Below are positions 28,067 to 31,226 of a DNA stretch of 64,000 nt, piece by piece (positions within the stretch are counted from its first letter, which is position 1; every line of letters begins with the position of its first letter). The position numbers were made by a program, and so were the translations under genes. The DNA lies in assembly GCA_030156535.1 (NCBI GenBank), contig JASGMJ010000010.1:82885-146884 (forward strand). The letters run 5' to 3'. The notes below the pieces were generated by a model. It had not been told where the DNA came from. It saw only the letters and a list, made by a program, of their open reading frames with translations, and did not search any database. This stretch comes from Candidatus Sumerlaeota bacterium (GTDB lineage: Bacteria > Sumerlaeota > Sumerlaeia > SLMS01 > JAHLLQ01).

Positions 28067-28114
28067 GAGCGGGGCGCGGATGGCTGCTGCGCTCCCCGCG
28101 GGTGATCGTTCACC

Positions 28115-28130
28115 CGTCCCTGACGGGACT
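28115..28130. repeat. Dispersed palindromic motif cgtccctgacgggact
   Basis: The same imperfect palindrome (GTCCC-tgac-GGGAC type) recurs at 31108-31123 (one base changed) and in a shortened form at 45173-45186, always between genes. It may be a REP-like element or a binding site. Confidence 0.45.
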
Positions 28131-28172
28131 CCTTTTGATTTCCCGGGCCACGCAGAAGAGAAGACCATTCGA

Positions 28173-28214
28173 AACCGGGAACTGGCGACCGGGAACTGAC
28201 GACCGGGAACTGAC
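28173..28214. repeat. Three tandem 14-bp repeats (gaccgggaactgac)
   Basis: Two identical copies (28187-28200 and 28201-28214) follow one diverged copy (28173-28186), upstream of the sugar-acid operon. A variable-number locus or an array of regulator sites are both possible. Confidence 0.6.
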
Positions 28215-28319
28215 GATTGCCTCCGGGCAGCGTTTCCTTCTTGTGCAGTCCGCGCGGTGTCGTCTTCGATGACGCTGCGGCAAGAGGCCGCCCGATTCTT
28301 TCGTTGGAGTCCTTTGCAC

Positions 28320-29189
28320 ATGGCGGCGACCCCTCCCCACGATGACGCAGCGGTTTCTCCCGCTGGCGCGTCTCTTTTCCGGCTCGATGGGCGGACGGCG
28401 CTGGTGACGGGTGGCTCGGGAGTTCTCGGCGGCGCGATGGCGCGCGGGCTGGCCCAGGCAGGCGCGCGTGTGGCCCTGGCCGCGCGAACGGCGAAGAATG
28501 TCGAAGCCGCCGCCGCCGATTTGCGCAGCCACGGCGCGCAAGCCATCGGCGTGGCCATGGATGCGTGCGAGACCGGGGCGATCAGGGCGGCGGTGGAGAA
28601 AGTGGAGCGCGAGCTTGGCCCCGTCGATATTCTCGTGAATGCGGCGGGGGGAAATCAGGCGGGAGCAACGACGCTGGCGCCCGAGCGCACCTTCGCGCAA
28701 CTCGACCCCGATGCCCTGCGCAAGGTCGTCGACCTGAATTTGTTTGGCGGCGCGATGCTCCCCGCGCTCGTCGTGGGGCAGTGCATGATCGAGCACAACG
28801 TGGCCGGGTCGATCATCAACATCACGTCGGTTTCCGCTGCCACGCCGCTGACGCGCGTCGCGGGTTACTCCGCCGCGAAGGCCGCCGTGGGGAGTTTCAC
28901 GCAGTGGCTCGCCGTGCATCTGGCGCTCGAACTGAACGCGCCAATCCGCGTGAACGCCATCATGCCCGGGTTCTTCCTGACCGAGCAGAATCGCTTTCTG
29001 CTGACGAACGAGGACGGCTCGTTGACGGAGCGCGGGCGCACGATTATTGAGCACACACCGATGAAGCGTTTCGGTTCGCCCGGGGAACTCGCCGGCGCGT
29101 GCGTGTTCCTCGCCTCGCCCGCGAGCAAGTTCGTCACGGGCACGACGCTGACCGTCGATGGCGGCTTCACCGCCTTCTCAGGAGTCTGA
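28320..29189 (+). CDS. uxuB: SDR oxidoreductase, UxuB/YjmF-type D-mannonate (fructuronate) oxidoreductase
   Basis: 289 residues from ATG 28320; upstream in-frame starts at 28257 (GTG) and 28269 are possible but less conserved. Classical SDR: GGSGVLGGAMARGLA (NAD-binding TGxxxGxG-like), NAAGGN, and the catalytic Ser in INITSVS with Y/K in YSAAKAAV. The C-terminal half closely follows B. subtilis UxuB/YjmF: RVNAIMPGFFLTEQNRFLL, IIEHTPMKRFGSP, FVTGTTLTVDGGF and AFSGV. That enzyme interconverts D-fructuronate and D-mannonate with NADH. It is the first gene of an operon with gluconokinase (3 bp gap) and a LarA-family epimerase, which supports a sugar-acid role. Confidence 0.85.
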   Translation: MAATPPHDDAAVSPAGASLFRLDGRTALVTGGSGVLGGAMARGLAQAGARVALAARTAKNVEAAAADLRSHGAQAIGVAMDACETGAIRAAVEKVERELGPVDILVNAAGGNQAGATTLAPERTFAQLDPDALRKVVDLNLFGGAMLPALVVGQCMIEHNVAGSIINITSVSAATPLTRVAGYSAAKAAVGSFTQWLAVHLALELNAPIRVNAIMPGFFLTEQNRFLLTNEDGSLTERGRTIIEHTPMKRFGSPGELAGACVFLASPASKFVTGTTLTVDGGFTAFSGV

Positions 29190-29192
29190 GCG

Positions 29193-29729
29193 ATGATCGT
29201 CCTTGTCATGGGTGTTTCGGGATGCGGCAAGACAACCGCCGGGCGTGCGATCGCGGAGGAACTCGGTTTGCCATTTTACGATGCCGACGACTTTCATCCC
29301 GCCGCCAACCGCGAGAAAATGGGGCGCAACGAACCGCTCGGCGACGAGGACCGCTGGCCGTGGCTGCGCCTGCTGGCCGAACGCATGAGGGAATGGGACG
29401 CGCGCGGCGGCGCTGTGCTGGCCTGCTCCGCGCTCAAGCAGTCCTACCGCGATGTCCTGGCCACCGGCGCCGACCGCGTCGCCGTCGTCCACCTCATCGC
29501 GCCGAAGAGCGTCGTTGCCGCGCGACTCGAATCGCGCAAGGGAACGCACGTCATCGTGCGCGACTACGACCGCTTTCTCGAAGGGCAGTTCCGCGATCTT
29601 GAGGAACCCGCCGATGCGATCCGCGTGCCGTGCGATGCTCCGCTCGCAACGATTCGCGCCACGGTGCGCCGTGCCCTGGCGGAGGGCAAAACAACCGGCG
29701 ACGCGCCCAACGAAAGGAACAACGCATGA
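29193..29729 (+). CDS. gntK: Gluconokinase (GntK/IdnK type)
   Basis: 178 residues. Phosphorylates D-gluconate to 6-phosphogluconate with ATP (EC 2.7.1.12). The P-loop GVSGCGKTT (residues 7-15) leads the protein. Family blocks follow: FYDADDFHPAANREKMGRNE then PLGDEDRWPWL, LACSALKQSYRDVL, and the LID region RKGTHVIVRDYDRFLEGQF. Length is normal for the family. It starts three bases after the SDR stop and ends in an ATGA overlap with the LarA-like gene, so all three are co-translated. The operon supplies its substrate if the epimerase makes gluconate. Confidence 0.92.
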   Translation: MIVLVMGVSGCGKTTAGRAIAEELGLPFYDADDFHPAANREKMGRNEPLGDEDRWPWLRLLAERMREWDARGGAVLACSALKQSYRDVLATGADRVAVVHLIAPKSVVAARLESRKGTHVIVRDYDRFLEGQFRDLEEPADAIRVPCDAPLATIRATVRRALAEGKTTGDAPNERNNA

Positions 29730-31033
29730 GCACTTCCTCCGTCCCTCCGGCGCGCGAGTACATCGCGCAGGGTTCTCCCACGATCGTGATCGACGACGCG
29801 GCAACGACCCGGCTGCTCGACGGCATGTTGGATCAGCTCGGCGAGCTGTCGCGCGTACTGCTCATCCCGCCGGACTTCACGCGCTTCCATTCCGGCGCGG
29901 GGCCGATCACCGTTGCGCTCTGGAACATGCTGCACGCGCGCGGCGCGCGCGAGGTCAAGGTGCTCCCCGCTCTCGGAACCCACGTGCCGATGACGCGCGT
30001 GCAGCTCGAACGCATGTACCCCGGTATCCCTGCCGAGGCATTCGTTGCGCATCAGTGGCGCACGGATCTGGAGATGCTTGGCGAGGTGCCCGGCGCGTTC
30101 GTGCGCGAGGTCTCCGGCGGGCGCGTGGATTATTCGATTCGTTGCGAGATCAACGCGCTGGCCGCGCGTGGCGGGTGGGACCGCATCTTCTCCATCGGCC
30201 AGCTTGTTCCCCACGAAGTTATCGGCATTGCCAACCAGAACAAGAACATCTTTGTCGGCACGGGCGGCAAGGACGTGATCGACAAGTCGCACTTTCTCGG
30301 CGCCGTCTGCAACATGGAGACGATCATGGGGCGCGCGGACACGCCGGTGCGCGCGGTGCTCGACTACATGAGCGACAACTTCGCCGCGCATCTGCCGATC
30401 ACGTATGTGATGACGGTGCGCGGCAACGACAACGGCCGGCTCGTCACGCGGGGCCTGTTCGCGGGCGACGGCAAGGAGAGCTTCCGCAAGGGCGCCGCGT
30501 TGTCCCAGCAGGTGAACCTCGATCTGCTCGACGCGCCGCTCCAGCGCGTCGTCGTCTTTCTCGACCCCGAGGAGTTTCACTCCACGTGGATCGGCGACAA
30601 GGCGCTGTACCGCACGCGCATGGCGTTGGCCGACGGCGGCGAGCTCATCATCATGGCCCCGGGCGTAAACACGTTTGGCGAGGACAAGGGCATCGACGCG
30701 CTGATCCGCAAGTACGGCTACCGGGGGACGGAGCACACGCTCGCCGCGGTTGCGGCGAACCCGGAGGAACTCGGGCGCAACCTCTCCGCCGCCGCGCACC
30801 TCATTCATGGCTCCAGCGAAGGGCGTTTCCGTGTCGTGTGGTGTCCGGGCGGGCTGACGCGCGCAGAGGTGGAATCCGTCGGCTACGAGTACGGCGCCGT
30901 GGAGGCGATGCTGAATCGCTACGACCCGGCGGTGCTGACGGATGGCTGGAACGAGCAGGCGGGCGTGTTCTTCATCCGCAACCCGGCGCTGGGCCTCTGG
31001 GCCCTGCGGACGAGCTTCGCGCAGAGCGCCTGA
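29726..31033 (+). CDS. LarA-family nickel-pincer hydroxyacid epimerase, probably D-gluconate/D-mannonate 2-epimerase
   Basis: 435 residues. LarA enzymes racemise 2-hydroxyacids using a Ni-pincer nucleotide tethered to a Lys. All key positions appear at LarA spacing: D50 and R53 (PPDFTR), H86 (LGTHVP), H163 (VPHE), K173 (NQNKN) and H189 (DKSH). L. plantarum LarA has D72, R75, H108, H174, K184 and H200, with the same gaps of 33, 10 and 16. Some family members are known to epimerise D-gluconate at C2. Gluconokinase overlaps it upstream (ATGA) and a mannonate oxidoreductase leads the operon; mannonate and gluconate are C2 epimers. Cofactor genes larB, larC and larE are not in the window. Confidence 0.87.
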   Translation: MSTSSVPPAREYIAQGSPTIVIDDAATTRLLDGMLDQLGELSRVLLIPPDFTRFHSGAGPITVALWNMLHARGAREVKVLPALGTHVPMTRVQLERMYPGIPAEAFVAHQWRTDLEMLGEVPGAFVREVSGGRVDYSIRCEINALAARGGWDRIFSIGQLVPHEVIGIANQNKNIFVGTGGKDVIDKSHFLGAVCNMETIMGRADTPVRAVLDYMSDNFAAHLPITYVMTVRGNDNGRLVTRGLFAGDGKESFRKGAALSQQVNLDLLDAPLQRVVVFLDPEEFHSTWIGDKALYRTRMALADGGELIIMAPGVNTFGEDKGIDALIRKYGYRGTEHTLAAVAANPEELGRNLSAAAHLIHGSSEGRFRVVWCPGGLTRAEVESVGYEYGAVEAMLNRYDPAVLTDGWNEQAGVFFIRNPALGLWALRTSFAQSA

Positions 31034-31226
31034 ACGGCAGGCCGCTCTCAAAAGTCTTGTCCAGGACGCGACTTGGAGTGAGTGCTCTTTGTTATGAATC
31101 GATCAGTCGTTCCTGACGGGACTCTTCTGGGAAAGCAGAAGGCTATTGGCACCTGTGGCTCTGGGAATGCCCTGTTCTGCTTGCATGGCTGAAGGACACT
31201 TACCCATTGAGCAAGAGCCCACTTTT

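Follow-up and report, generated by a model that had tools for sequence, protein, structure and literature searches.

The stretch of DNA analysed in this study, which is referred to as the window, comprises 64,000 nucleotides of an assembly of a Candidatus Sumerlaeota bacterium (GCA_030156535.1; contig JASGMJ010000010.1, positions 82,885 to 146,884 of the forward strand). It harbours three tightly coupled open reading frames on the plus strand, which encode a short-chain dehydrogenase/reductase (SDR), a gluconokinase and a LarA-family protein (Table 1). The coordinates and the coupling of these genes, as given in a first-pass annotation, were confirmed. It is quite likely that SDR, LarA-family protein and gluconokinase, acting in this order, convert fructuronate via mannonate and gluconate to 6-phosphogluconate.

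Table 1. Genes and other features of the operon region and one related gene elsewhere in the same genome.
Feature	Position	Strand	Remarks
SDR, UxuB/YjmF (D-mannonate oxidoreductase) subfamily	28320..29189	+	ATG start; alternative longer GTG start at 28257
Gluconokinase, GntK/IdnK-type	29193..29729	+	gap of 3 nt to the SDR gene
LarA-family group-18 protein, predicted nickel-pincer D-mannonate/D-gluconate 2-epimerase	29726..31033	+	ATGA overlap with the stop codon of the gluconokinase gene
Three tandem 14-nt repeats (ACCGGGAACTGRCG)	28174..28216	+	spacer 5' of the operon
Element with terminator-like hairpin	28105..28131	+	5' of the operon; 13-nt core in common with 31098-31124
Flanking element, copy 2	31098..31124	+	3' of the operon; 85% identity over 27 nt to the first copy
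Divergent UxuA-family protein	L073:1393-2610, contig C3	-	beside an aldo/keto reductase-like gene (by eye)

The SDR matched the model NF006132 (D-mannonate oxidoreductase; 329.7 bits, cut-off 281), and it was the only one of seven matches in its own genome (E up to 1e-20) that exceeded the cut-off. The residues Ser170, Tyr183 and Lys187 (Ser-Tyr-Lys) were invariant in all 17 aligned SDRs. Where beta-strand 2 ends, the window SDR reads Ala-Ala-Arg-Thr, whereas Asp occurs there in 13 of these 17 proteins; the Arg type was also found at the loci L042, L006 and L011. Arg instead of Asp at this position predicts that an SDR uses NADPH rather than NADH. Because Ala-Arg replaces Asp, the predicted fructuronate reductase is probably of the NADPH type, so that the sequence does not favour NADH, with which an assay had been proposed in the first-pass annotation.

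The second gene product passed the gluconokinase model TIGR01313 (145.5 bits, cut-off 113.75) and contains a P-loop motif. The third was assigned to the LarA family by the Pfam model Lar_N (29.6 bits, cut-off 23.3) and to its group 18 by NF052594, "nickel-dependent putative hexonate epimerase" (NPN_18; 578 bits, equivalog cut-off 500), while no model of groups 19 or 20 was matched, of which the library may hold none. Since the scores of the three proteins lay far above the curated cut-offs, their family assignments, which had also been made in the first-pass annotation, are not due to chance. In a study that sorted 354 LarA homologues into 25 groups, epimerisation of D-mannonate in vitro was shown for members of groups 19 and 20, and group 18 was hypothesised to act on a hexonate from its loop and helix signatures (PMC7583248). 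The structures nearest to an AlphaFold model of the window epimerase were 4nar, to which it is about 24% identical, and LarA.

According to the numbering of LarA in PMC7583248, R53, K173 and H189 of the window protein correspond to the residues R75, K184 and H200, which bind the nickel-pincer nucleotide (NPN) cofactor, and D50, H86, H163 and K292 to the catalytic residues D72, H108, H174 and K298. The spacings reported previously (R53-H86 33; H163-K173 10; K173-H189 16) were correct. All seven residues were invariant in 30 aligned group-18 proteins, i.e. the window protein and 29 proteins from the 65 loci that were obtained by scanning named genomes with the window epimerase, and the same holds for all 192 close homologues, a number that includes the window protein. 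In PMC11770544, which adds the oomycete gluconate epimerase LarAH15, the motif E,V,A,H at four positions that determine selectivity is reported as usual for gluconate epimerases. The window protein fits this motif with Glu164 and Val165 and, if the A,H pair is rightly identified from the adjacency of the two residues rather than from a LarA alignment, with Ala357-His358; the Trp of helix alpha-11, a further selectivity residue (PMC7583248), is Trp288. Functions as malate racemase (NF052593, 47.6 bits, cut-off 500; NF052595, 31.2 bits, cut-off 462) or as lactate racemase (no match to the lactate model at E 1e-3) were rejected.

The remainder of the genome (94.45% complete, 64 contigs) was searched for partners of these enzymes. 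As had been suggested in the first-pass annotation, genes for the synthesis of the cofactor were sought, and all were found above the cut-offs (LarB 286.8, LarE 302.2, LarC1 183.9 and LarC2 130.5 bits). LarC is split between two contigs (LarC1, L082:6673-7614, plus strand; LarC2, L083:7532-8026, minus strand); by eye, the neighbour of the LarC2 gene is uvrC-like. Two Lar_N proteins were found in the genome, and only the one in the window shows the canonical residues. The other (L081:7889-9166, plus strand, contig C28; 21% identity in a rough alignment; 209.5 bits versus 460 required for LarA) was considered as a user of NPN; in this alignment the positions of D50, R53, H86, H163, K173, H189 and K292 are all changed, and it may not use this cofactor.

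Gene families, active-site residues, predicted fold, genome content, neighbourhoods and fusions point to a route whose reactions, order and direction are predicted as follows. Glucuronate would be isomerised to fructuronate by the uronate isomerase UxaC (588.3 bits, cut-off 387); entry from glucuronate rather than from galacturonate is suggested because no match to PF16257 (UxaE) was found in the genome. Fructuronate would then be reduced to D-mannonate by the UxuB-type SDR, and D-mannonate would be epimerised at C2 to D-gluconate by the group-18 protein. As in LarA, this epimerisation would proceed by transfer of the C2 hydride to the nickel-pincer cofactor, formation of a 2-keto intermediate and return of the hydride to the opposite face, with His86 and His163 as the putative acid/base pair. 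D-gluconate would be phosphorylated to 6-phosphogluconate by the gluconokinase, and 6-phosphogluconate dehydrogenase (Gnd, 686.1 bits, cut-off 413) would yield ribulose 5-phosphate. This exit is the most likely one, since no phosphogluconate dehydratase was found; an Entner-Doudoroff exit was rejected, as the sole match to the IlvD/Edd family in the genome is IlvD. UxuB would consume one NAD(P)H and Gnd would return one NADPH; with an NADPH-type SDR, and provided that Gnd is of the NADP type, the route between glucuronate and ribulose 5-phosphate would thus be redox-neutral.

Fructuronate reductase, LarA-family epimerase and gluconokinase are likewise encoded in one operon in Thermotoga maritima (UxaR-regulated uxaE-uxaD-gntE-gntK), where the uxaD product is presumably an SDR. 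This operon was described as aldH-pelB-gnd-uxaRED-gntEK in an organism that retains kdgAK-uxuBA (PMC3750489), and uxaD was named as fructuronate reductase (PMC7953866). The shunt was proposed in 2012, with gntE homologues in Lactobacillus, Acidobacterium and Terriglobus (PMC6978723). The epimerase GntE2 of T. maritima (LarAH20, structure 4nar) epimerises D-mannonate in vitro (PMC7583248) and belongs to another LarA group than the window protein. GntE1 of Corynebacterium glutamicum (LarAH19) and LarAH15 of Phytophthora nicotianae are also NPN-type enzymes active with D-mannonate, and the motif E,V,A,H, which is reported as usual for this class, fits the window protein; the KM of GntE1 for mannonate is high, and its native substrate is perhaps another compound (PMC7583248, PMC11770544). 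In contrast to T. maritima, which possesses UxaE and has gnd inside the operon, the window's genome lacks a match to the former, and its genes for Gnd and UxaC are unlinked to the operon. With the Ashwell isomerase pathway (UxaC, UxuB, UxuA, KdgK, Eda) the genome has the upper half in common, as well as Eda and a KdgK-like gene, but mannonate would be epimerised instead of dehydrated. The mannonate-gluconate shunt has thus already been published for T. maritima; the window, with reductase, epimerase and gluconokinase adjacent and Gnd in the genome, is a further, predicted example, which relies on a group-18 LarA protein.

Genes of the same route also accompany the epimerase in other genomes. 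The neighbourhoods of the 65 loci were searched by tblastn with seeds from the loci and the window (E up to 1e-8, at least 70 bits), and UxaE (26 loci), a KduD-like SDR (26), UxaC (24), an MFS transporter (17), Gnd (17), a UxuB-type SDR (16) and GntK (3) were detected. At least one of the markers UxaC, UxaE, UxuB, Gnd and GntK was present in 42 of the 65 loci (Acidobacteriota 22/26, Bacteroidota 8/8, Planctomycetota 5/7, Bacillota 5/6, Verrucomicrobiota 1/1, Spirochaetota 1/13, Pseudomonadota 0/2, Sumerlaeota 0/1, Lentisphaerae 0/1; the groups were taken from the titles of the records, Ignavibacteriales and Melioribacter being counted under Bacteroidota, and Lentisphaerae separately from Verrucomicrobiota). 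These counts include six loci with a cut or broken epimerase gene (L050, L054, L059, L060, L065, L066) as well as L027 and L034, which stem from one metagenome-assembled genome. Matches to the neighbour seeds lay on the strand of the epimerase gene in 150 of 154 cases, and in L035 the order UxaE-UxuB-epimerase-GntK equals that of Thermotoga. The acidobacterial UxaE matches were weak (28-34% identity), one being confirmed by Pfam (149.5 bits). As a control, 195,860 bases of the own genome were searched, in which the seeds matched the single copies already known and, weakly, two SDR sites; this control is a weak one, because more than half of its bases were taken around genes of this study.

In both pseudomonadotal loci, a protein of the mannitol dehydrogenase family is encoded directly 3' of the epimerase, for which fructuronate reductase was the best model (537.3 and 525.7 bits, short of the required 603). 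If these two loci are added, pathway markers occur in 44 of the 65 loci. Similarly, UxaC, a mannitol-dehydrogenase-family protein and an FGGY kinase are encoded 5' of the epimerase in L036, the kinase being most similar to FGGY gluconokinase (282.8 bits, below the cut-off of 648.55). As the epimerase is accompanied by unrelated proteins predicted to do the same jobs, it is likely that the pathway itself is conserved. Where GntK was not seen, other kinases (PfkB, PFK) and one protein without a Pfam match, which is HAD-like by eye, are encoded adjacent to the epimerase at L004:5825-6907, L021:4724-6004, L018:5337-6248 and L048:5637-6968. The proteins at these four sites are candidates for non-homologous gluconate kinases.

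Epimerase and gluconokinase were also found as fusion proteins. Kinase domains were present in 14 of the best 120 homologues. The gluconokinase domain is N-terminal in P0016 and P0050 and C-terminal in P0074, which stems from a Candidatus Sumerlaeota member, and all three proteins pass both models; since the domain orders are opposite, separate fusion events must have occurred. In a set of 192 proteins, which is biased because a fusion served as the query of the second search, 83 proteins comprised at least 480 residues. Among these, 41 are extended at the N-terminus by a part that resembles the window GntK and contains a P-loop, one possesses such a part C-terminally, 14 show similarity to GntK without a P-loop at the expected place, one shows a P-loop only, 21 possess an N-terminal extension with neither feature, and five have no extension of more than 60 residues. 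The kinase part of P0085 remained below the cut-off (85.8 versus 113.75 bits), and P0031, P0108 and P0145 matched no kinase model at E 1e-10, as if the kinase domain were decaying step by step in this series. Some sources of this series are Polyangiaceae or Myxococcota. A paper describing kinase-epimerase fusions was not found in the open-access literature searched.

The gene pair and the fusions are compatible with either order of kinase and epimerase. The gluconokinase-like protein could first act on mannonate, with the LarA-like protein then epimerising 6-phosphomannonate to 6-phosphogluconate. This order was seen in the galacturonate route of Lactobacillus suebicus, which resembles the proposed shunt in leading from mannonate to 6-phosphogluconate instead of 2-keto-3-deoxygluconate (KDG) and in which cell extracts phosphorylate mannonate before the epimerisation (PMC6978723). 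The assayed gluconate epimerases of the LarA family, however, use free D-mannonate (PMC7583248, PMC11770544), the kinase of the window passes the gluconokinase model, and the epimerase gene of L. suebicus was reportedly not identified (PMC6978723). It is therefore unlikely that phosphorylation precedes epimerisation.

A quite improbable alternative is that the SDR is a gluconate 5-dehydrogenase of the IdnO type and that the epimerase acts one step earlier, on fructuronate to give 5-keto-gluconate (likewise C2 epimers), or on another hexonate (L-idonate/L-gulonate). Gluconate 5-dehydrogenase models were among the runner-ups of the SDR, its second best match in the PDB (5u9p, 132 bits) bears this name, and GntK-type kinases also work in idonate pathways. 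Nevertheless, only the D-mannonate oxidoreductase model is passed by the SDR, which stays below the cut-offs of the three gluconate 5-dehydrogenase models among the matches listed (200.9 bits for the best of them, cut-off 279; 162.2, cut-off 369; 154.7, cut-off 408), and in other genomes the epimerase is accompanied by UxaC, UxaE and a fructuronate reductase of the E. coli type.

Aldarates come into consideration because of Orenia metallireducens (L057:2197-9724). Its group-18 protein (571.7 bits) is encoded directly 5' of a galactarate dehydratase (803 bits, cut-off 730.85), and glucarate dehydratase (782.4 bits, just under the cut-off of 828.7), glycerate kinase and tartronate-semialdehyde reductase are encoded upstream. 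The Orenia protein differs at 19 positions at which the other loci show a conservation of 95% or more, including Glu164 to Ala, Ala357 to Gly, His361 to Arg, Leu353 to Arg and Glu283 to Lys (window numbering). Glu164 immediately follows the catalytic His163, in a loop named as substrate-recognising in PMC7583248. Ala164, Gly357 and Arg361 occur in all eight closest homologues of the Orenia protein (one 99% identical), whereas among its best 120 homologues Glu164 is kept in 106 and His361 in 111; six others combine Ala or Gly at position 164 with His361, so that both positions do not always change together. The Orenia clade, whose gene context is known from one locus, may act on aldarates, and the Orenia protein is a candidate nickel aldarate epimerase. 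That the window protein itself acts on an aldarate such as glucarate is highly improbable, as it possesses Glu164, Ala357 and His361, which suggest the hexonate type, and is coupled to a gluconokinase.

Besides the order seen in L. suebicus, several observations weigh against the shunt from fructuronate via mannonate and gluconate to 6-phosphogluconate as the function of the operon. The genes for UxaC and Gnd are located on contigs other than that of the operon. The first-pass annotation had proposed a bypass of both mannonate dehydratase and KDG and a search for the absence of uxuA and kdgK. No NCBIfam model of mannonate dehydratase or Edd was passed in the genome at its completeness of 94.45%; the only enolase-superfamily protein above the Pfam cut-off is most similar to DgcA and L-Ala-D/L-Glu epimerases (ManD, 46.4 versus 550 bits). 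Doubt is left by a single divergent UxuA-family protein, which exceeds the cut-off of the broad Pfam model (131.4 bits, cut-off 23.7) and stays below those of the NCBIfam models of mannonate dehydratase (125.5, cut-off 191; 95.8, cut-off 199.55); it is possibly another sugar-acid enzyme. With regard to KDG the first reading needs correction. Because Eda (228.2 bits, cut-off 156.05) and, beside it, a kinase most like KDG kinases (below their cut-offs) are encoded, only a recognised mannonate dehydratase is missing and not the lower KDG branch.

Further reservations concern the family. In 21 of the 65 loci no marker was found; several of these have short flanks, while L003, the sole Candidatus Sumerlaeota locus, and L048 extend 7 kb to both sides. 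Some of the unmarked loci contain an MFS transporter and a KduD-like SDR (L009, L026), PfkB (L023), PFK (L040, L062) or the aldarate cluster (L057), and 12 of the 13 Spirochaetota loci are unmarked. The Spirochaetota loci (L040, L041, L043-L045, L047-L049, L051-L053, L055, L062) are mostly from Treponema; some lie near a gene of the phosphofructokinase family, and several have short flanks. Seeds of KdgA matched in four and of PfkB in seven of the 65 loci, and the loci are not independent, 26 being acidobacterial. Genomic context is not always informative for LarA homologues (PMC7583248), and the position of the Orenia member in a glucarate/galactarate cluster indicates that group 18 is not confined to a single substrate. 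Moreover, the residue before Lys292 is Asp in the window protein, Asn in all 62 readable loci and Gly in GntE2, and no assayed protein named as group 18 was found in the open-access literature searched. Even so, family assignments, epimerase motif, neighbourhoods elsewhere, fusions and the genes of the own genome support the predicted conversion of mannonate to gluconate that had first been read from the operon.

Concerning the DNA around the operon, the repeats in the 5' spacer are a possible operator. The 13-nt core CCTGACGGGACTC of the flanking elements occurs in the window (with at most one mismatch) only on the two sides of the operon.

The NCBI model of group 18 is still labelled "putative hexonate epimerase", and a hexonate was only hypothesised as substrate in the study of 2020; the operon, the kinase fusions and the contrast of residues with the Orenia clade lead to concrete, assayable claims on this substrate. 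The wider picture, which as a whole has about an even chance of being correct, is that group 18 represents a dedicated nickel mannonate/gluconate epimerase of a widespread route from hexuronates to pentose phosphates, which is able to replace mannonate dehydratase. At least two unrelated fructuronate reductases would have been recruited to this route, gluconokinase would have been fused independently in both orders, likely for channelling, and an Orenia-type offshoot (Ala164/Gly357/Arg361) would have switched to aldarates, with the selectivity residues reading hexonate versus aldarate. If this is true, the homologues, which in the sources listed are mostly labelled as "nickel-dependent lactate racemase", would serve the breakdown of glucuronate via the pentose phosphate pathway.

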